Source: Acidimicrobiia bacterium (GTDB lineage: Bacteria > Actinomycetota > Acidimicrobiia > IMCC26256 > PALSA-610). From it: a stretch of 64,000 bases of DNA. The position numbers and the translations under genes are program-made. Location of the stretch: assembly GCA_036271555.1 (NCBI GenBank), contig DATBAK010000057.1, positions 1-64,000 on the forward strand, in the 5' to 3' direction. A model generated the notes under the pieces. That model was not told the origin of the DNA. It made no database searches and saw nothing but the letters and a program-made list of their open reading frames with translations. Of the stretch, positions 8,993 to 64,000 are shown one piece after another; the first letter of the stretch is position 1, and every line of letters begins with the position of its first letter.

Positions 8993-10126
8993 ATGCGCGG
9001 GCGCGAGACTGCGGCCGTGCGGGTGCGCGAGATCGAGCTGCGGTGGGTGCGGATGCCGCTGGTGCGGCCGTTCCGCACCGCGCACGGGGTCGAGCACGAG
9101 CGCGACGTCCTCGTGCTGCGGATCGCGACCGATAGCGCCGACGGCTGGAGCGAGTGCGTCGCGCCGAACGCACCCACGTACACGTCGGAGTGGGTCGGCG
9201 GCGCGCACGCGGTGATTCGCGAGTTCCTCGGGCCGATGCTGCTCGCCGCGCCGGTGCGGCCTTCCGACGTCGCCGGCCGACTCGCCGGGATCGAGGGTCA
9301 CGCGATGGCGAAGGCCGCGCTCGAGACCGCGGTGCTCGACGCACAGCTGCGTACCGAAGGTCGATCGCTCGCGTCGTTCCTCGGCGCGACGCGCACGCGT
9401 GTCGAGTGCGGCGTCGCGGTCGGCATGGCAGACTCGATCGCCGCGTTGATCGACGAGTGCGCGGGATACCTCGCCGCGGGCTACCGGCGCGTGAAGCTCA
9501 AGATCGAGCCGGGTTGGGACGTCGAGCCGGTTGCCGAGTTCCGCAAGCAGTTCGGTCCCGTTCCGCTGCAGGTCGACGCCAACGGCGCGTACGGGCTCGG
9601 CGATGCACCGCACCTCGCGCAGCTCGACGACTTCGACCTGCTCTGCATCGAGCAGCCGCTCGCGGCGAACGACCTGCCCGCGCACGCGGGTCTCGCGCGT
9701 CTCATCAGGACGCCGATCTGCCTCGACGAGTCGATCACGTCGGCGCGTGTCGCGCGCGAGGCGATCGACGCGGGCTCGTGCGCAGTGGTCTGCGTGAAAC
9801 CGGGACGCGTCGGCGGCTATCTGGAATCGCTCGCGATCCTCGACGTGTGCGCGTCGCGCGGCGTGCGTGCGTGGTGTGGCGGCATGCTCGAGACGGGACT
9901 CGGTCGGGCCGCGAACCTCGCGCTCGCCGCGCATCCCGGCTTCACGATGATCGGCGACGTGTCGGCCTCGGACCGCTACTTCGCGCGCGACCTCACCGCG
10001 CCGTTCGTGCTCGAGTCCGGCGAGCTGCCGGTTCCCGACGGCCCGGGGATCGGCGTCGTCCCTGATCCCGATTCGCTGCGCGCGCTCACGACGTCGATCG
10101 AAGTCGTGAGCCGGTCGATCGCATGA
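8993..10126 (+). CDS. menC: enolase-superfamily enzyme, o-succinylbenzoate synthase-like
   Basis: 377 residues from ATG 8993 (GTG 9017 and 9023 are alternatives). The muconate-lactonizing/MenC subgroup residues are all present: the KxK pair K168/K170 (RVKLKIEPGWD), metal ligands D195 (VDANGAY), E220 (CIEQPL) and D245 (CLDES), and the second catalytic lysine K269 (CVKPGRVGG). o-Succinylbenzoate synthase acts in menaquinone synthesis; close relatives are N-acylamino-acid racemases, which sequence alone does not separate. No other men genes flank it, though a UbiA/MenA-like prenyltransferase lies at 36.5 kb. It overlaps the next gene by 4 bp (ATGA), indicating translational coupling. Confidence 0.8.
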   Translation: MRGRETAAVRVREIELRWVRMPLVRPFRTAHGVEHERDVLVLRIATDSADGWSECVAPNAPTYTSEWVGGAHAVIREFLGPMLLAAPVRPSDVAGRLAGIEGHAMAKAALETAVLDAQLRTEGRSLASFLGATRTRVECGVAVGMADSIAALIDECAGYLAAGYRRVKLKIEPGWDVEPVAEFRKQFGPVPLQVDANGAYGLGDAPHLAQLDDFDLLCIEQPLAANDLPAHAGLARLIRTPICLDESITSARVAREAIDAGSCAVVCVKPGRVGGYLESLAILDVCASRGVRAWCGGMLETGLGRAANLALAAHPGFTMIGDVSASDRYFARDLTAPFVLESGELPVPDGPGIGVVPDPDSLRALTTSIEVVSRSIA

Positions 10127-55403: not shown

Positions 55404-56747
55404 TCAGCGGGGGTCGGGAACCCAGTTGCCGTGGAAGCCGTAGGGCACGCGCTGCGGGAGCGCGACCGTCGCGATCGGCTCCGACGCGACCGCGCTCGCG
55501 TCGAGCACGACGAAATCGCTCGAATCGCGCGTCGGGTCGTACACGAAGCCCATGAGGTAGCCGTCGTCCTCCGACGTCGCACCCTCGCTCGGCACGAACA
55601 CGAACTCGCCGGGACTCCCGCCGTTCGCGAAGTCGTGCCCCTCCGACGTGCCCGTCTGCAGGTCGTGCTTCAAGATGCGCGCGGTGTCGAACGCGGTCTC
55701 ACTGTTGATCGTCTCGACCACGTACCCGTACCGGTGCCGCGACATCAGGAGCGACTCGTTCACGCGCGGGAACTCCTGCCCGCGGTCGTCGAGCCGTTCC
55801 TGGCGCACCTTGCGCGCGGCGGTGTCGATCGTCCACCGGTCGAGCGTCGGCAAACCGCCGTCGTTCGGGCCTTCGACGCTGTGGGCGAACATCGTCGGGT
55901 GCCGGCACACGTCGACGACGACGGCGTCGCCCTCGTCGTACGCGTTCATGGGGTGGAACACGTAGCAGGGCTCGACGTCCGACCACACGACGTCGGCGTC
56001 GCCACCGTCGCGCGGCATCACGCCGACGCGCGCGGGATAGTCGTCGTCCCAGCGGTACGGCATCGCGAGCCCGCGTTCGACCATCGAGAGGTCGAACACG
56101 ACCGGAAGGTCGAAGAACACGACCGAGCTGCGCGTGAGCGCGAAGTCGTGGATCATCGTCGGCCCGCCGACGGTGATGGGCTCGCTGCGCACGAGCCGCC
56201 CCGACGCGTCGATCACGTGGTAGATGAGATTCGGCGAAGTCCACGAGTACGCAAACCCGTGCAGCTCACCCGTGACCGGATCGGTCTTGGGGTGCGCGGT
56301 GAAGCCGGTCGGCAACGTCCCGTCGAACGCAGTGCGTCGAAGCGTGTCGAGCTCCGGCGACAGCTCGTAGGGCATCGCACCTTCGGTCAGCGACAACACA
56401 CGACCCGCGTGCCCGATCACGTTCGTGTTGCTCGAGTCGTACATCGGCGGCGGCGGTCCGTCGATCGCGGCCTCGCCCGTCGCGCCGGTGATCGGCGCGG
56501 TGCGCACCCAACGATTGCGGTACCAGTTCGCGCGTCCATCGCGCAGCTCGATGCCGTGCACCATGCCGTCGCCGATGAACCAGTGATACGGGCCTTCGGG
56601 CATCGCGTACGGGTTCGGGCCGATGCGCAGGTAGCGCCCGCTCAACTCACGCGGGAGCGCGCCCCGCACTTCGAGCCGCGAATCGGTGACCTCGTCGCGC
56701 ACGGGCGCGTAGTTGCCGAGCAGGAACGGGTTCGTCGTCGCGACCAT
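55404..56747 (-). CDS. carotenoid oxygenase (RPE65/CCD family)
   Basis: 447 residues. The four iron-binding histidines are identifiable: H152 (FTAHPKTD), H200 (MIHDFALT), H265 (VFHPMNAYDEGD) and H439 (YGFHGNW). GPNPYAMPEGPYHWFIGDGMVHGI is the strongly conserved N-terminal block. Family members cleave double bonds of carotenoids, retinoids, stilbenes or lignin-derived compounds; which applies is unknown. It has the clearest promoter in the window (TTGACC-17-TATAAC) and is divergent from the Rieske fusion genes. Confidence 0.92.
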   Translation of the reverse strand: MVATTNPFLLGNYAPVRDEVTDSRLEVRGALPRELSGRYLRIGPNPYAMPEGPYHWFIGDGMVHGIELRDGRANWYRNRWVRTAPITGATGEAAIDGPPPPMYDSSNTNVIGHAGRVLSLTEGAMPYELSPELDTLRRTAFDGTLPTGFTAHPKTDPVTGELHGFAYSWTSPNLIYHVIDASGRLVRSEPITVGGPTMIHDFALTRSSVVFFDLPVVFDLSMVERGLAMPYRWDDDYPARVGVMPRDGGDADVVWSDVEPCYVFHPMNAYDEGDAVVVDVCRHPTMFAHSVEGPNDGGLPTLDRWTIDTAARKVRQERLDDRGQEFPRVNESLLMSRHRYGYVVETINSETAFDTARILKHDLQTGTSEGHDFANGGSPGEFVFVPSEGATSEDDGYLMGFVYDPTRDSSDFVVLDASAVASEPIATVALPQRVPYGFHGNWVPDPR

Positions 56748-56794
56748 CGGTCCCCCATGTCAGACGTGTGTGGACGGCCAGGCTGTATCACAGC

Positions 56795-56823
56795 GTTATA
56801 CCAATGATGTGCGACCGGGTCAA
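56795..56823 (-). promoter_or_regulatory. canonical sigma70-type promoter of the carotenoid oxygenase gene
   Basis: Minus strand TTGACC (56818-56823), 17-bp spacer, TATAAC (56795-56800). Transcription would start near 56788, giving a ~40-nt leader with GGGGGA before the ATG at 56747. The stretch is unusually AT-rich for this genome. Confidence 0.65.
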
Positions 56824-56880
56824 CGGCCGCCCGCGCGGGAGAATCACGCACCACACGTTCGGCCAAGGGGGGCAGCGCGG

Positions 56881-58488
56881 ATGAATCGGGTGAAGGTCGC
56901 GACCTGGAGCGAGGTGCCCGATCGCACGCCGGTCGGCGCGAACGTCGAGGGCATCGATCTCGTGATCGTGCGCCGCGGCGACGAGCACTCCGTGCTCTAC
57001 GGCCGGTGTCTGCATCGCGGCGCGCGGCTCGCCGACGGCTCGATCGTCGGCGACGACCTCATCTGCGGTCTGCACGGCTGGGACTACCGCATCGACACCG
57101 GCGTGAGCGCGTACAACAACGCCGAGGTGCTGCAGAAGTTCGAGTCGGAGCTCGACGGCGGCGACCTCTTCGTCGATCGCGACGCGGTGCTCATGTGGAA
57201 GATGAAGCACCCGCAACCGTTCGACCCCGACGTCTACCAAGGCCTCTACCGCGATCCGCACATGGTTCCGGAAGAGCCGTTCGTGATGTACATCCACGAG
57301 CTCGCGCAGTTCGGGCTGTCGAAGACCGGACACCACGGACCGGTCGCGGCGATGGGCGTGCCGCGCACCGAGCTCCCGACGTGGGACACGATGCAGATCG
57401 TCACCGCGCAGCTCGCGCGGTTGCCGCTGCTCGACGACGATCCCGTCGGCACCGACCTGTGCATCGGTCCGAACGCGGCGAAGCCGTTGTGGCTCGACAT
57501 CCCGATCTTCGTGTCCGACATGTCGTTCGGCGCGCTGTCGCAGGAGGCGAAGACCGCGCTCGCGCGGGGCGCGCAGCTCGCCGGTACGGGCATCTGCTCC
57601 GGTGAGGGCGGCATGCTGCCGGAAGAGCAGGCCGAGAACGCGCGCTACTTCTACGAGCTCGCGTCGGCCCGTTTCGGGTGGTCGTTCGACATCTTGAAGA
57701 AGGTGCAGGCCTTCCACTTCAAGGGTGGGCAGGGCGCAAAGACAGGTACGGGTGGACACCTTCCCGGCGACAAGGTCGTCGGCCGCATCGCCGAGGTGCG
57801 CGGCCTGCCCGAGGGGACGCCCGCGATCTCGCCACCGCGCTTCCCCGACTGGACCTCGCTCGACGACTACCGCGCGTTCGCGGATCGCGTGCGCGAAGAA
57901 TCGGGTGGCATCCCGATCGGGTTCAAGCTGTCGGCGCAGCACATCGAGGAAGACCTCGACGCCGCGCTCTCGGTCGGCGTCGACTACGTGATCCTCGACG
58001 GTCGGGGCGGCGGTACCGGCGCGGCACCGCTGCTGTTCCGCAACAACATCTCGGTGCCGACGATCCCCGCGCTCGCGCGCGCCCGCCGGCACCTCGACCG
58101 ACGCGGTCGCCGCGACGTCACGCTCGTGATCACCGGTGGCTTGCGCGACGCCGCCGACTTCGCGAAGGCGCTCGCACTCGGCGCCGACGCGGTCGCGATC
58201 GCGAACTCCGCGATCCAGGCGATCGGCTGCCTCGGCATGCGCGCGTGCCACTCGAACAACTGCCCGGTCGGGATCGCGACGCAGCAGCCGCACCTGCGCG
58301 CGCGGTTACCGGTCGACGAGGCCGCGCAGCGGTTGGACCGATTCCTGCGCGCGTCGGTCGAGCTGATGCAGGTGCTCGCGCGCGCGTGCGGGCATTCGCA
58401 CCTCAACCAGTTCAGCCTCGACGACCTCACGTCGTTCGACCGCAACGTCGCCGACCTCGCGGGCGTGGCGTACGGCGGCGTCGCGTGA
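56881..58488 (+). CDS. Rieske [2Fe-2S] - glutamate synthase-like FMN/Fe-S fusion protein
   Basis: 535 residues. Residues ~1-105 form a Rieske domain with ligands C43-x-H45 (CLHRGARLADG) and C62-x-x-H65 (CGLHGWDY). After a ~70-residue linker, residues ~180-520 match the FMN/Fe-S synthase domain of glutamate synthase: VSDMSFGALSQEAKTALARGA, GEGGMLPEEQ, KGGQGAKTGTGGHLPGDKV, IGFKLSAQH, ILDGRGGGTGAAP and the cluster motif C450-x5-C456-x4-C461 (NNCPVGIATQ). The glutaminase domain is absent, so glutamine is not its donor. It probably transfers electrons from the Rieske centre to FMN at an unknown substrate. A second Rieske fusion follows. Confidence 0.88.
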   Translation: MNRVKVATWSEVPDRTPVGANVEGIDLVIVRRGDEHSVLYGRCLHRGARLADGSIVGDDLICGLHGWDYRIDTGVSAYNNAEVLQKFESELDGGDLFVDRDAVLMWKMKHPQPFDPDVYQGLYRDPHMVPEEPFVMYIHELAQFGLSKTGHHGPVAAMGVPRTELPTWDTMQIVTAQLARLPLLDDDPVGTDLCIGPNAAKPLWLDIPIFVSDMSFGALSQEAKTALARGAQLAGTGICSGEGGMLPEEQAENARYFYELASARFGWSFDILKKVQAFHFKGGQGAKTGTGGHLPGDKVVGRIAEVRGLPEGTPAISPPRFPDWTSLDDYRAFADRVREESGGIPIGFKLSAQHIEEDLDAALSVGVDYVILDGRGGGTGAAPLLFRNNISVPTIPALARARRHLDRRGRRDVTLVITGGLRDAADFAKALALGADAVAIANSAIQAIGCLGMRACHSNNCPVGIATQQPHLRARLPVDEAAQRLDRFLRASVELMQVLARACGHSHLNQFSLDDLTSFDRNVADLAGVAYGGVA

Positions 58489-58535
58489 GCGCGCAAGCGG
58501 TGAGCGGAGCGAGCAGGCGACCTGAGGCGCTCCCA
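58487..58535. repeat. dispersed element, partial, reverse orientation
   Basis: GAGCGCGCAAGCGGTGAGCGG followed by AGCGAGCAGGCGACCTGAGG and CGCTCCC. Its complement matches the fragment at ~50775-50823. It begins at the stop codon of the Rieske-glutamate-synthase gene. Confidence 0.6.
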
Positions 58536-58577
58536 TCCCGCGTCATCGAGCGGGTGCACGGTCAGCGACGGACCTCG

Positions 58578-58652
58578 ATGACGCACCGCGCCGCGAGGAG
58601 CAAGCACGCGACCGATGTGATGGAGACCGAGCGCCGCGAGGTCGACCGATGA
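58578..58652 (+). other. possible 24-codon open frame coupled to the next gene
   Basis: ATG 58578 opens MTHRAARSKHATDV and ends METERREVDR with a TGA overlapping the start of the next gene (ATGA). Composition is ordinary and the ribosome-binding site weak, so it may be chance; if translated it would couple to the downstream enzyme. Confidence 0.2.
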
Positions 58653-60592
58653 GCACCGTCTGGTACCGGGTCGCCGACGTCGACGAACTGCCCGACGGGC
58701 GCGTGAAGACGGTCGCCGCCGGTCATCGGTCGGTCGCGCTCACCCGCTTCGGAGACCGTTACGGCGCGCTGCACAACAAGTGCCCGCACCAGGGCGGACC
58801 GCTCGGCGAGGGCTCGATCGAGAAGGGCTGGCTGCGCTGTCCGTGGCACGGCTACGACTACGACCCGATCACGGGAACGCCGCCGCCCGGTTTCACCGAT
58901 GCGCCCGAGGCGTATCCGGTCGAGGTGCGCGCCGACGGTGTCTACGTCGGCCTCCCACCCGAAGCGCCGCGCGAGCGCACCGTCTCGGACGTGATGGTCG
59001 AGACGATGGTCGCGTGGGGTGTGACCCACGTGTTCGGCATGGTCGGCCACTCGAACCTCGGTTTCGCCGACGCGATGCGCGAGGCCGAGGCGCGCGGCGA
59101 CCTGCAGTTCGTCGGCATCCGTCATGAGGGCGCGGCCGCGTTCGCGGCCTCGGCCTACGGCAAGCTCACCGGCAAGCTCGCGGCGTGCTTCGCGATCGCG
59201 GGACCGGGTTCGACGAACCTGCTGACCGGGCTCTACGACGCGAAGGTCGACCGCGCGCCGGTGCTCGCGCTCTCCGGGCAAGTGCCGTCGAAGGTCGCGG
59301 GCCGCGGCGCGTTCCAGGACGTCGACCTCAACGCCGCGTTCGCCGACGTCTCCGTCTTCTCGCGCACCGTTCACGAGCGCTCCGACCACGCCGAGCTGAT
59401 GACCCTCGCGTGCAAGCACGCGCTGCTCGAGCGCGGCGTGTCGCATCTCGTGTTCCCCGACGAGGTGCAGGTCGTGCCGGCCGCCGACCACCAGGTCGCG
59501 AGCGGTCCGACCGGAAGGCTCCCCGACCTGCGCACGCGCCCTCCGGTCGAGGCCGTCGAGGAGGCGATCGAGCTGATCCGCGGCGCGCGCCGACCCGTGA
59601 TCGTCGTCGGCCACGGCGCGCGCTTCGACATGATCGCGGTCTACGCGCTCGCGGAGCGGCTGCGCGCGCCGATCGTCACGACGTTCAAGGCGAAGGGACT
59701 CATCGCCGACGACGACCCGCTCGCGTGCGGTGTGCTCGGTCGCAGCGGCACACCGATCGCGTCGTGGTTCATGAACGAGTCGGACCTCCTCCTCGTGTTC
59801 GGCGCGTCGTTCTCCGATCACACCGGTATCGCTTCGTACAAGCCGATCGTGCAGGTCGACTTCGACCCGGACGCGCTCGGTCGCTTCCACGCCGTCTCCG
59901 TGCCGGTGCTCGGGCACGTCGGCGTCACCGCGCACGAGCTGCTCCGCGCGCTCGGCGAATCCGACGTCGACACCGTCGATCAGCGACCCGAAGTGCTCGA
60001 GCGGCGCGCGATCTGGCACGCGGAGAAGGCGCGGCGGCTGCTCGACGACCGCGGCCTCGGTGTGTCGTCGGCCGCGATCTTCGACTCGCTCTCGCGACTG
60101 GTCGATCACGACGCGGTCATCGCGGTCGACGTCGGCAACAACACGTACTCGTTCGGCCGCTACTTCGAGTGTCGCCGTCAAGCGGTGCTGATGTCGGGTT
60201 ACCTCGGGTCGATCGGGTTCGGCTTCCCGGCCGCGATGGGCGCGTGGGCCGCGGTCGGCGGGACCCGCCAGGTCGTCGCGGTCACCGGCGACGGCGGCTT
60301 CGGTCAGTACCTCGCAGAGCTCACGACCGCGGTGAAGTACGGGATGAACATCACGCACGTGCTGCTCGACAACGCGCAGCTCGGGAAGATCTCGAAGGAG
60401 CAGCGCGCGGGCGAGTGGGACGTGTGGCAGACGTCGTTGCACAACCCCGACTTCGCCGCCTACGCGGAGCTCTGCGGCGCGTTCGGCGTGCGGGTGGACG
60501 AGCGCGCGCAGCTCGACGACGCGATCGCATCCGCGCTCGCGCACCCCGGCCCCGCGCTCGTCGCGATCACCGCCGACGCCAATCTCATCTGA
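58649..60592 (+). CDS. Rieske [2Fe-2S] - thiamine-diphosphate enzyme fusion (PoxB-like)
   Basis: 647 residues. Residues ~1-105 are a Rieske domain: C45-x-H47 (KCPHQGGPLGEG) and C64-x-x-H67 (RCPWHGYDYD). From ~110 to the end it is a ThDP enzyme of the acetolactate synthase/pyruvate oxidase superfamily: activating E160 in GIRHEGAAAFAASAYGKLTG, GPGSTNLLTGLYDAKVDRAPVLALSGQ, and the cofactor loop GDG (547-549)...DN (574-575). The GLYDAK block is closest to quinone-linked PoxB, but no C-terminal membrane helix is seen. Decarboxylation of a 2-oxo acid with electrons passing to the Rieske centre is inference. It follows the other Rieske fusion by 160 bp. Confidence 0.88.
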   Translation: MSTVWYRVADVDELPDGRVKTVAAGHRSVALTRFGDRYGALHNKCPHQGGPLGEGSIEKGWLRCPWHGYDYDPITGTPPPGFTDAPEAYPVEVRADGVYVGLPPEAPRERTVSDVMVETMVAWGVTHVFGMVGHSNLGFADAMREAEARGDLQFVGIRHEGAAAFAASAYGKLTGKLAACFAIAGPGSTNLLTGLYDAKVDRAPVLALSGQVPSKVAGRGAFQDVDLNAAFADVSVFSRTVHERSDHAELMTLACKHALLERGVSHLVFPDEVQVVPAADHQVASGPTGRLPDLRTRPPVEAVEEAIELIRGARRPVIVVGHGARFDMIAVYALAERLRAPIVTTFKAKGLIADDDPLACGVLGRSGTPIASWFMNESDLLLVFGASFSDHTGIASYKPIVQVDFDPDALGRFHAVSVPVLGHVGVTAHELLRALGESDVDTVDQRPEVLERRAIWHAEKARRLLDDRGLGVSSAAIFDSLSRLVDHDAVIAVDVGNNTYSFGRYFECRRQAVLMSGYLGSIGFGFPAAMGAWAAVGGTRQVVAVTGDGGFGQYLAELTTAVKYGMNITHVLLDNAQLGKISKEQRAGEWDVWQTSLHNPDFAAYAELCGAFGVRVDERAQLDDAIASALAHPGPALVAITADANLI

Positions 60593-60685: not shown

Positions 60686-61576
60686 CTACTGCGCCGAGAT
60701 CGCGCTGCGCCGGCGGCGCCGCGCGACGACGATCGCCGCGAGCAGCAGGACGAGGATCGCGGCGAAGCCGACGAGTCCCCACGACGACCCGCCCCCTCCG
60801 TGCGCGACGACCGGCGCGGTCGCGACCTTGCGCGGCGACGTGTCGGCCGCGCGCACGCTCGTCTCGGTCGAACGCTCGGCCGTCGTGTCGGTCGATGCCG
60901 GCGGCCGCGTCGTGCTCGGCACCAACGCGATCGTCGGAGCCGTTGGACCGGGGCCTCCGTCCGCGCGCGCCGTCGTCGTCGGTGCGACCGGGCCGACGGG
61001 GCCGACCGTCAGCGGGCTGACCGGCGGTCGGCGCGCGGTCGAGGCCGGCGGACGCGTGGTCGTGGGTGTCGAAGGCCACGCGTCGTTGAACGACACGAAC
61101 GGCGACGGCGCCGATCCCGTGCTCCAGTTCCACGCCTCGACATCGCCGTCGTGCACCTGCGTGTTGCCGGCCCCGAGGCTCGACCACGTATACCTCGACG
61201 CGCCGGCGAGCGCGCGCCAGTACGACCAGTAGTCGGAATCGGGCGAGCACGTCAGACACGTGTTGTCGGAGGGGCATCCGATCGTCGTGCCGCCGACGTC
61301 GAGGGCGCAGACCGCGCCACCATTGCCGCCGAACACGCGCACACCCGGCGCGAAGCCCGCGGCACGTAACGCGTCGAGGCCGCTGATCCAATCCGACGAG
61401 AACGAGATCTTGGCCGTGTGGATCACGCCGTCGACCTCGACGACGACGGCCGCGCGATGCGCGGTCGCGCCACGCGCGGAACCCGCGCCCGCGACGCCGA
61501 TTCCGACCGCCGCCGCGACGACCAGCGTCGTCACGATCGCGAACCGCCGACGCAATCCGAACGACCGCACCCGCAT
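60686..61576 (-). CDS. surface-anchored transcobalamin-like (DUF4430-type) protein under B12 riboswitch control
   Basis: 296 residues. A signal peptide (RRRFAIVTTLVVAAAVGIGVAGAG) is followed by a domain at ~40-155 (VVVEVDGVIHTAKISFSSDWISGLDALRAAGF, CSPDSDYWSYWRA, SRYTWSSLGAGNTQVHDGDVEAWNW) that matches the transcobalamin C-terminal-like pattern with its repeated Trp/Tyr and cysteines. A Thr/Pro linker, one membrane helix (WGLVGFAAILVLLLAAIVVA) and RRRRR anchor it. GGAGGAG precedes the ATG. The cobalamin riboswitch directly upstream on the same strand and the adjacent ECF transporter make it a likely cobalamin-capture protein; the ligand is inference. Confidence 0.78.
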   Translation of the reverse strand: MRVRSFGLRRRFAIVTTLVVAAAVGIGVAGAGSARGATAHRAAVVVEVDGVIHTAKISFSSDWISGLDALRAAGFAPGVRVFGGNGGAVCALDVGGTTIGCPSDNTCLTCSPDSDYWSYWRALAGASRYTWSSLGAGNTQVHDGDVEAWNWSTGSAPSPFVSFNDAWPSTPTTTRPPASTARRPPVSPLTVGPVGPVAPTTTARADGGPGPTAPTIALVPSTTRPPASTDTTAERSTETSVRAADTSPRKVATAPVVAHGGGGSSWGLVGFAAILVLLLAAIVVARRRRRSAISAQ

Positions 61577-61664
61577 CGCCGACTCCTCCCCGACCCCGTC
61601 CTCGAGGGCCGTCCGGGCGGCCGTCCGGAGACGGCCGGTGACTTCGACCGGCGATCGCCGGCGG

Positions 61665-61780
61665 ACGGGGCGGGCATCCTGGCTCGCGCCACGGAGGCGC
61701 TCACAGTTGCGGGTCAGCGCCGGATTCGCACCGGCTTCCCCCGACCCCTGTCGGGCCGGACGCTAGCGCGCGTCGGCCTC
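61665..61780 (-). promoter_or_regulatory. cobalamin riboswitch
   Basis: On the minus strand: GGGGGAAGCCGGTGCGAATCC, GGCGCTGACCCGCAACTGTG and the B12 box GAGCCAGGATGCCCGCC (complement of 61669-61685). These are the conserved core and B12-box elements of the cobalamin aptamer in correct order. It is followed by the hairpin GGCCGTC-TCC-GGACGGCC and the GGAGGAG ribosome-binding site of the downstream gene, suggesting control of translation or termination. It controls the transcobalamin-like gene on the minus strand. Confidence 0.93.
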
Positions 61781-61866
61781 CGAGACCCGCGCCGAAGCGT
61801 GCGGCGACGAGATCACAACAAGGCCGCTTGCTGCGAGGTCGCAACCACCGGCGCGATGCTGAGGCC

Positions 61867-62991
61867 GTGGCCACCGACCAGCTCGCGCCCGATCGCCACG
61901 CGATCGCGATCGGCACGGACCGGGCCGCGGACCGTCCCGCGCTGCACGCCGCGACCTGGGTCGTGTGGGCGATCGCGGCGGTCGTGTCGGTGCAGCTCGC
62001 GCCGAACGTGCTCTACGCCTGCGTCGTGCTCCTGGTGGCCGTGCTCGTCGTCGAGACGCACGGCCGGCGCACGGGGCTGGCGCGCGCGTTCCCGATCTTC
62101 ATCGGGATCGGCGTGACCTTCGGGCTCCTGCGGGTCGTGCTCACGATCGCGACGACCCACGGGCTCGGCACGCCGCTCCTGACGCTGCCGCACGTCACCC
62201 TGCCGCGCATCCTCGGCGGCTTCCGCGTCGGCGGCACGATCGAGCGCCAGGTTCTCCTGCAGGCGCTCGCGGACGCGTTCGTCGTCGTGGTCGTGATCGC
62301 GGTGTTCGGCGCGTGGAACGCGGTCGTATCGCACCACGAAGTGCTCCAGTCGACGCCGCGCGCGTTCCACGAGCTCGGGCTGGTCGTCACGATCGCGCTC
62401 GCCTTCGTGCCGTCGACGATCGCCGCGCTGCGCGCGTCCCGAGAAGCGGATCGGGCACGCACGGGTGGGGTGATCGTGCGTCGCGGCCGGCTCGTGCGGC
62501 ACGCGGTCCCGGTACTCGAGAGCGGCATGGAACGCGCGGTCGCGCTCGCGGAGTCGATGGACGCGCGCGGGTTCGGGCACCAGCCCGCGGGCCGGGGCGA
62601 GCGGTTCGCCGCGATCGGCACGCTCGGCGGACTGCTCGGCTTCGGCGGCGCGTTCGTCGCGCTCATCGGGAGCGCCGACGTCGCGGCGCTGATCTCGGGC
62701 ACGGTCGGCGCGGTGCTGCTCGTCGCCGCGATCGCGAGCGCGTCGTCGGCGACCCGGCGCGTGCGCTACCGACCGCGGCGGCTCACGGCGCTCGACGCGC
62801 GCGTGATCGCCATCGTGCTCGCGGCACCGATCGGGCTCGGCATCCTCGGACTCGCGGGCGACCATTCGCTGCGCTACTCCCCCAGCGAGCACGGCCTACC
62901 GCCGTTCCACCCGATCGTGCTCGTCGTGCTGCTCGCGCTCCTGGTTCCCGTGTTCGTCGCCAACCCCGCGCTGCGGAGCGACCAGGCGTGA
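61867..62991 (+). CDS. ecfT: ECF transporter transmembrane subunit EcfT
   Basis: 374 residues from GTG 61867. Multi-pass membrane protein (VLYACVVLLVAVLVV; GIGVTFGLLRVVLTIA; FVVVVVIAVFGAWN) with the EcfT coupling-helix motif ARG in ESGMERAVALAESMDARGFG, plus a preceding SREADRARTGG helix. EcfT links an S component to the EcfA ATPases. It is longer than most EcfT (~265), with extra C-terminal helices. The gene overlaps the EcfA start (GTGA) and is divergent from the B12 riboswitch gene, so cobalamin is the probable substrate. The S component is not in the window. Confidence 0.85.
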   Translation: MATDQLAPDRHAIAIGTDRAADRPALHAATWVVWAIAAVVSVQLAPNVLYACVVLLVAVLVVETHGRRTGLARAFPIFIGIGVTFGLLRVVLTIATTHGLGTPLLTLPHVTLPRILGGFRVGGTIERQVLLQALADAFVVVVVIAVFGAWNAVVSHHEVLQSTPRAFHELGLVVTIALAFVPSTIAALRASREADRARTGGVIVRRGRLVRHAVPVLESGMERAVALAESMDARGFGHQPAGRGERFAAIGTLGGLLGFGGAFVALIGSADVAALISGTVGAVLLVAAIASASSATRRVRYRPRRLTALDARVIAIVLAAPIGLGILGLAGDHSLRYSPSEHGLPPFHPIVLVVLLALLVPVFVANPALRSDQA

Positions 62992-64000
62992 GCGCGTCGC
63001 TGCGTTACGAGCGCGTCGGGTACGCGTATCCGGACGGCGTGACCGCGCTCGACGCCGTCGACCTCGACATCGACGCGGGCGACATCGCGCTCGTGGTCGG
63101 CGCGTCGGGGTCGGGTAAGAGCACGCTGCTGCGCGCCGCGAACGGACTCGTCCCGCACTCGTCCGGCGGTCGCTTCGCGGGCGACGTCGTCGTGGGTGGG
63201 CGTTCCACCCGCACGCACCGGCCGCGCGAGCTCGCCGACCTCGTCGGGTTCGTGCACCAGGATCCCGAGGCGCAGTTCGTCGTCGACCATGTGGAGACCG
63301 ACCTCGCGTTCGTGCTCGAGAACCTCGGGACCGATCAACAGGCGATGCGGCGGCGCGTCGAAGAGGTACTCGACGCGCTCGCCATCGCGCACCTGCGCGA
63401 CCGGTCACCCGCGACGTTGTCGGGCGGGGAACGCCAGCGCTGCGCGATCGCGGGCGCGCTCGCGTCCGCTCCCGCGGTGCTCGTGCTCGACGAACCGACG
63501 TCGCAGCTCGATCCCCAGGGTGCCGACGACGTGCTCGCCGCGCTCGCGCGCCTCAACGCCGACCTCGGCACGACGATCCTGATCGCCGAGCACCGCCTCG
63601 AGCGTGCCGCGCCGCTCGCACACCGCGCGGTCGTGGTCGAGCGAGGGCGCATCGCGGCCGACGGTGAGCCCGGGCGCGTCGTCGCCGGTTACGACGGCGC
63701 GCCACCGGTCACGCAGCTCGGCCGGCTGCTCGGTTGGGATCCGCTGCCTCTCACCGTGCGCGAGGCGCGCGCCCGCGCCGCCGGTGAGCCCCGTCCCGCG
63801 CCAACCGCGCCGCCGGCGACCGGCGCCGAGCCGGGCCCGGTCGTGCTCCGTGCCCGTGGGCTTGCGTGCGCGATCGGCGGCCGGCGTGTGCTCACCAATA
63901 TCGAACTCGATCTCGCGCGCGGCGACGTGCTCGCGCTGCTCGGCCGCAACGGCTCGGGCAAGACGACGTTGCTCCGCACGCTCGCGGGACTGCTCGCCGC
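62988..64000 (+). CDS. ecfA: ECF transporter ATPase, fused tandem EcfA-EcfA (partial, runs off window)
   Basis: At least 337 codons, open at the window edge. First cassette: Walker A GASGSGKST (38-46), Q-loop FVHQDPEAQFV, signature LSGGERQRC, Walker B VLVLDEPTSQLDP, H-loop IAEHRLE. A Pro/Ala linker (GEPRPAPTAPPATGAEPG) leads to a second cassette with Walker A GRNGSGKTT. Energy-coupling-factor transporters use two ATPases, fused here in one chain. The GTG start overlaps the EcfT stop by 3 bp. The EPEAQF-type Q-loop is typical of ECF ATPases. Confidence 0.92.
   Translation, partial: MSASLRYERVGYAYPDGVTALDAVDLDIDAGDIALVVGASGSGKSTLLRAANGLVPHSSGGRFAGDVVVGGRSTRTHRPRELADLVGFVHQDPEAQFVVDHVETDLAFVLENLGTDQQAMRRRVEEVLDALAIAHLRDRSPATLSGGERQRCAIAGALASAPAVLVLDEPTSQLDPQGADDVLAALARLNADLGTTILIAEHRLERAAPLAHRAVVVERGRIAADGEPGRVVAGYDGAPPVTQLGRLLGWDPLPLTVREARARAAGEPRPAPTAPPATGAEPGPVVLRARGLACAIGGRRVLTNIELDLARGDVLALLGRNGSGKTTLLRTLAGLLA

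Follow-up and report, generated by a model that had tools for sequence, protein, structure and literature searches.

A predicted transcobalamin-like carrier and energy-coupling factor importer of vitamin B12 in an acidimicrobial genome

Results

A riboswitch, a surface protein and a divergent transporter at one locus

We analyzed a 64,000-base stretch of DNA from an Acidimicrobiia bacterium, hereafter the window, which comprises bases 1-64000 of a 77,030-base contig (C57) in a genome of 4.68 Mb on 104 contigs. Towards its end, the window carries a cobalamin riboswitch, a gene for a predicted surface protein with a transcobalamin-type beta-domain and, on the opposite strand, genes for an energy-coupling factor (ECF) transporter (Table 1). 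The riboswitch is the sole Rfam match within the window, and the open reading frame (ORF) of the beta-domain gene begins 94 bases 3' of it on the same minus strand. The first-pass annotation of this DNA, made from the sequence alone, had placed a cobalamin riboswitch ahead of a binding-protein gene, and the covariance score, which lies above the gathering threshold rather than being low, bears this out. The annotation had also described a signal-peptide protein with a single anchor, and the product indeed contains two hydrophobic segments, at residues 10-28 (signal peptide) and 261-279 (a single C-terminal anchor followed by arginines); no LPxTG motif was seen in its sequence. We modelled the beta-domain with AlphaFold2 using 29 aligned relatives (alignment A5); its predicted local distance difference test (pLDDT) and predicted template modelling (pTM) scores are given in Table 1. 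In VIA-align, the best matches to this model were haptocorrin (4kki; Z 12.3, root-mean-square deviation 1.8 over 97 residues), intrinsic factor (11.9) and transcobalamin (11.6), and the 15 best matches, comprising these three carriers and one bacterial protein, spanned Z 10.9-12.3, and the next unrelated fold reached 7.2. A Foldseek search of the PDB gave a top 16 consisting entirely of transcobalamin or RUMGNA_00854. Sequence comparison yielded a weak match to the SCO2322 family (SCO2322_fam, NF040672; 17.8 bits, E 0.0033, below the curated cut-off of 85 bits), and a PDB profile search with the beta family returned nothing relevant. Judged by its modelled fold, the window domain is transcobalamin-type, in agreement with the transcobalamin C-terminal-like domain proposed in the first pass.

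Table 1. Features of the locus, in window coordinates unless stated otherwise.
Feature	Position	Strand	Basis
Gene for transcobalamin beta-domain protein (SCO2322-like)	60686..61576	minus	ORF of 296 amino acids, ATG at 61576; signal peptide, beta-domain, low-complexity stalk, membrane anchor
C-terminal transmembrane anchor, residues 261-279	60740..60796	minus	hydropathy
Beta-domain proper, residues 36-154	61115..61471	minus	AlphaFold2 pLDDT 94.1, pTM 0.88
Ribosome-binding site GGGGAGGAG of beta-domain gene	61583..61591	minus	read from sequence
Hairpin CGGCC-CUCGAGGACGG-GGUCG, likely expression platform	61591..61611	minus	directly 5' of ribosome-binding site, 5/5 pairs
Cobalamin riboswitch aptamer (RF00174)	61670..61761	minus	cmscan 51 bits, gathering 31.5, E 8.5e-10
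EcfT, transmembrane coupling subunit	61867..62991	plus	GTG start at 61867 inferred, open frame from 61828; CbiQ PF02361 E 4.9e-4
Fused double EcfA ATPase	62988..64000, to 64562 on contig	plus	TIGR04520 E 1.3e-67; two ABC_tran stretches
S component	contig 64559-65362, beyond window	plus	ECF_trnsprt PF12822 E 1.2e-9; family alignment A3

The window riboswitch was included in a 19-sequence family alignment (A4), and its leader contains a hairpin of 5 bp with the loop CUCGAGG. Among 41 leaders tried, the scan returned a hairpin in 38, and in 37 of these an equivalent hairpin stands beside the ribosome-binding site. The outermost pair is C-G in 14 leaders and G-C in 12, with changes on both sides; these pair counts lean towards pairing because our script took the best-paired register. 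We infer that the hairpin probably functions as a translational off-switch of the binder gene. A loop-loop contact is known from the cobalamin riboswitch class and may be part of such a switch.

On the other strand, EcfT starts about 105 bases from the 5' end of the riboswitch. Its match to CbiQ falls slightly under the curated cut-off, and we aligned it with relatives in a 28-row family alignment. The genes for EcfT, the fused double EcfA (EcfAA) and the S component (contig 61867-65362) each overlap the next by 4 nucleotides and therefore very likely form one operon, which has the composition of a group I ECF transporter: EcfT, two EcfA and an S component. The divergent EcfT and fused double EcfA had been recognized in the first pass, which suggested looking for the S component downstream of position 64000, where it is indeed located. 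An S component of another vitamin family (BioY, ThiT) had been named as evidence against a B12 importer; the one found matches only the general ECF_trnsprt family, and not BioY, ThiT or CbiM. S components diverge strongly in sequence. A search of the transporter side of the locus for a second riboswitch found none.

A toroid protein with its own riboswitch on a second contig

The genome contains two cobalamin riboswitches besides that of the window. One of them, on contig C73 (8882-9002), directly precedes a gene for a signal-peptide protein with squalene-cyclase-like repeats, hereafter the toroid. This putative alpha-toroid half of the binder, with a riboswitch of its own, was overlooked in the first pass; in this genome it is unlinked to the beta gene, the two lying on different contigs. 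The C73 toroid matches the SCO2321 family (NF053823) with 38.5 bits and E 6e-10, below the curated cut-off of 300 bits. We modelled a toroid from a relative of the same family (pLDDT 92.7) and obtained an alpha/alpha-toroid fold, for which Foldseek listed intrinsic factor and haptocorrin among the matches (E 2-3e-3). The transcobalamin alpha-domain adopts this fold, but so do terpene cyclases, prenyltransferases and complement TED domains. A third cobalamin riboswitch (locus L005, G000:C94 8992-9162; also L001; 95.6 bits) stands before a gene for an NrdA-like class I ribonucleotide reductase, on a contig whose GC content of 0.657, compared with 0.72, may point to contamination of the genome bin.

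Conservation of the locus among Actinomycetota

Scanning GTDB genomes with a toroid alignment, we collected 38 toroid loci from relatives, that is, Acidimicrobiia and other Actinomycetota, calling gene content with hidden Markov models built from a first set of loci and leader riboswitches with a covariance model from 19 leaders. In 37 of these loci, the toroid or beta-toroid genes come directly after a cobalamin riboswitch; the one exception starts at a contig edge. Conversely, 22 of 30 RF00174 matches in relatives directly precede a toroid or beta gene, and the other eight precede other genes. Toroid, beta, EcfT, EcfAA and S are all present in most of the 38 loci, and toroid and beta stand side by side in most relatives. 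The first-pass annotation had concluded from position that the riboswitch controls the binding protein only; this fits the window, whereas in one relative (L046/L060) a single riboswitch is followed by beta, toroid, EcfT, EcfAA and S, five genes on one strand, which ties the transporter to B12. In L124, a signal peptide, toroid, beta-domain and anchor occupy one riboswitch-led ORF of 566 amino acids, followed by EcfT-EcfAA-S, and in L053 toroid and beta are likewise fused in one ORF. Our fusion argument rests on these two. We dropped the L044/L086 ORF, where toroid, anchor, a second signal peptide and beta share one frame, as evidence of fusion, since a second signal peptide following toroid and anchor may indicate adjacency rather than true fusion; we also discarded a mixed alignment of fused, toroid and beta rows (A7) that had placed toroids on the beta-domain. 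The layout of the window, with beta divergent from EcfT and no adjacent toroid, recurs in L048, L050 and L051.

Of 149 Actinomycetota genomes sampled across the phylum, 55 contain the toroid family and 53 the S family, roughly a third in each case. Both occur together in 39, where 19.6 would be expected (Fisher p 7e-12); a toroid lies within 10 kb of S at 27 of 45 S loci checked. Genomes of Streptomyces size (L112-L114) carry toroid-beta-EcfT-EcfAA-S behind a cobalamin-riboswitch-like RNA that scores below the cut-off of Rfam's own model. The SCO2321 family matches the L053 toroid (E 1e-47) and the SCO2322 family the L056 beta protein (E 4.5e-6), both below curated cut-offs. We conclude that these two families are the same toroid/beta pair and that the same B12 kit recurs over much of the phylum Actinomycetota.

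Several loci showed further variation. Tandem cobalamin riboswitches precede the toroid gene in L056 (9567-9640 and 9795-9903, plus strand, with a third, divergent one at 9202-9290, minus strand) and in L059 (2192-2312 and 2404-2518, plus strand). L056/L040 has two beta-domain genes, and in L053 (G008:C34 1435-3980, minus strand) one more toroid gene and one more beta gene lie between the fused ORF and EcfT. At G102:C147, G136:C5, G089:C36 and five similar places, toroid genes have a more distantly related S component (E 1e-8 to 1e-16) within 10 kb, so the link with toroids may not be confined to this S family. L064 and L092, titled Bifidobacterium breve metagenome-assembled genome, carry an acidimicrobial-type locus, and the species label is probably wrong.

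An apparent need for B12 and one candidate importer

The window's own genome encodes MetH, two methylmalonyl-CoA mutases and a cobalamin adenosyltransferase. CbiC, a marker of B12 synthesis, is absent from it and from 56 of the 61 genomes searched, and CobS was absent in the own-genome search. A FecCD/BtuC-family permease gave 0 matches in this genome, with 13 of 14 controls positive, and we therefore rejected BtuFCD as the uptake route; Peripla_BP_2 gave one weak match only. A BacA-type importer (ABC_membrane_2) was likewise rejected for lack of a match in this genome, and a cobalt importer was set aside as the leading explanation since neither CbiM nor CbiC was found. The organism apparently cannot make B12, and we found no candidate B12 importer in the genome other than the ECF operon. 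Because B12 enzymes are present and CbiC, CobS, FecCD and ABC_membrane_2 were not found, the cell should need to import intact cobalamin.

Elsewhere in the window (56713-60592, plus strand), two neighbouring genes each start with a Rieske [2Fe-2S] domain, fused in the first to a glutamate synthase-type flavin mononucleotide domain and in the second to a complete thiamine-diphosphate enzyme.

Discussion

We propose, with a probability of roughly 0.78, that the beta protein and the toroid are a two-part bacterial transcobalamin-like carrier that feeds a dedicated group I ECF importer. The anchored beta protein and the exported toroid would close over one cobalamin in the way known for the beta- and alpha-domains of transcobalamin; the closed carrier would present the cobalamin to the S component, with EcfT and the double EcfA powering import. 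When cobalamin builds up inside the cell, the riboswitches would shut off both binder genes, probably at translation via the hairpin. Both the assembly of alpha and beta and the hand-over to the S component are predictions of this model. The transcobalamin-type fold, the adjacent S component, the absence of FecCD and CbiC and the presence of B12 enzymes make surface capture with delivery to an ECF importer instead of BtuFCD, as suggested in the first pass, the best reading of the locus.

Several points weigh against this proposal. Cobalamin binding is predicted for both proteins, and Pfam, including the DUF4430 family (PF14478) against which the first pass had suggested checking the window protein, yielded no match to it at E<=1. 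The S component has no detectable sequence relation to CbrT, the S component of a characterized B12 transporter (profile A3, no PDB chain at E<=10). In profile (1gsz, E 1.5e-20) as well as in fold (Z 24), the toroid most resembles squalene-hopene cyclase and other terpene cyclases; since its fold is common to cyclases, prenyltransferases and TED domains, and cyclases rank first in the search with the model, transcobalamin is not singled out by fold alone, and the toroid is identified by its genomic context. That the two halves are separate depends on how contigs were assigned to the genome, although L048, L050 and L051 show the same arrangement. It is also important to point out that the gene absences are not final, because the genome is a 104-contig bin that is 95.8% complete and 4.45% contaminated. 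Finally, ECF importers normally work without a separate binding protein.

The cyclase similarity, together with the unlinked toroid and beta genes of the window's genome, would fit a beta protein that binds surface cobalamin alone and a toroid that is an enzyme, terpene-cyclase-like or cobamide-modifying, incidentally included in the B12 regulon. We consider this quite improbable given that toroid and beta are adjacent in most relatives and joined in one chain in L124 and L053, in the alpha-then-beta order of transcobalamin, and that signal peptides on toroids are ill-suited to a membrane-lipid cyclase. It is also unlikely, in our view, that the binder pair stores, protects or senses extracellular cobalamin without handing it over, with the ECF transporter a merely co-regulated neighbour. 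S components bind their own vitamin with nanomolar affinity and carrier-free, and human B12 carriers release the vitamin only by proteolysis (PMC5997447), which would fit such a role; nevertheless, the neighbourhood with EcfT-EcfAA-S is conserved, including one-operon layouts, and the binder is membrane-anchored. Import of cobalt or of a B12 precursor (cobinamide or a lower-ligand base) in place of intact cobalamin could be suggested by the resemblance of EcfT to CbiQ and by the uptake of cobinamide by CbrT (PMC5997447). Yet the S component is not CbiM-type, cobalt could not be converted to B12 by the usual route because CbiC was not found, cobinamide could not be completed because CobS was not found, and an adenosyltransferase acting on cobalamin is retained, which makes this explanation very unlikely.

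The two-part carrier would offer a concrete function for two widespread families, SCO2321 and SCO2322, at a time when many bacteria still lack an assigned route of B12 uptake, and would provide bacterial relatives with which to test where human transcobalamin, intrinsic factor and haptocorrin came from. We hold only tentatively, as possible but short of probable, the stronger view that Actinobacteria have a true transcobalamin. In that view, toroid and beta, as two proteins or fused in one, would trap cobalamin and dock on the S component, so that this ECF system would have an extracellular carrier of its own, and the animal B12 carriers would have their source or sister in bacteria. In the literature searched, which did not include the 2009 ECF survey by Rodionov et al., we found neither this system nor any ECF importer combined with an outside carrier described; the transporter part may have been predicted before.

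Compared with the animal carriers transcobalamin (2bb5), intrinsic factor (2pmv) and haptocorrin (4kki), the window system shares the beta fold (Z 11-12 at 12-16% identity), an alpha/alpha-toroid partner and an extracellular location, and its fused relatives have the same alpha-then-beta order. It differs in that the window protein is the beta half only and membrane-anchored, with the alpha half encoded by a separate gene on another contig, and in being bacterial, riboswitch-controlled and linked to an ECF transporter rather than to endocytosis, with binding that is predicted. Because it is not the one-chain carrier and its binding is predicted, we have not filed the window protein as a transcobalamin; the window system most likely works like one. 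The window beta protein and the C73 toroid belong to the same broad groups as the SCO2322 and SCO2321 families, whose function is unassigned at NCBI, with all matches below the cut-offs (85 and 300 bits), and, unlike in the Streptomyces-size genomes, where the pair is linked, the two halves are unlinked in the window's genome. Like ECF-CbrT of Lactobacillus delbrueckii, the system appears to be an ECF-type B12 importer in an auxotroph without BtuCD (PMC5997447), whereas its S component is not detectably similar, its T, double A and S components have a dedicated operon, and no extracellular carrier is described for CbrT. With BtuFCD it would share B12 import by means of an extracytoplasmic binder, but the binder fold is unrelated and the genome has no FecCD match. 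RUMGNA_00854 (PDB 3u7z) has the same beta-domain fold (Z 11.8), but it is a Firmicute protein titled putative metal-binding protein.

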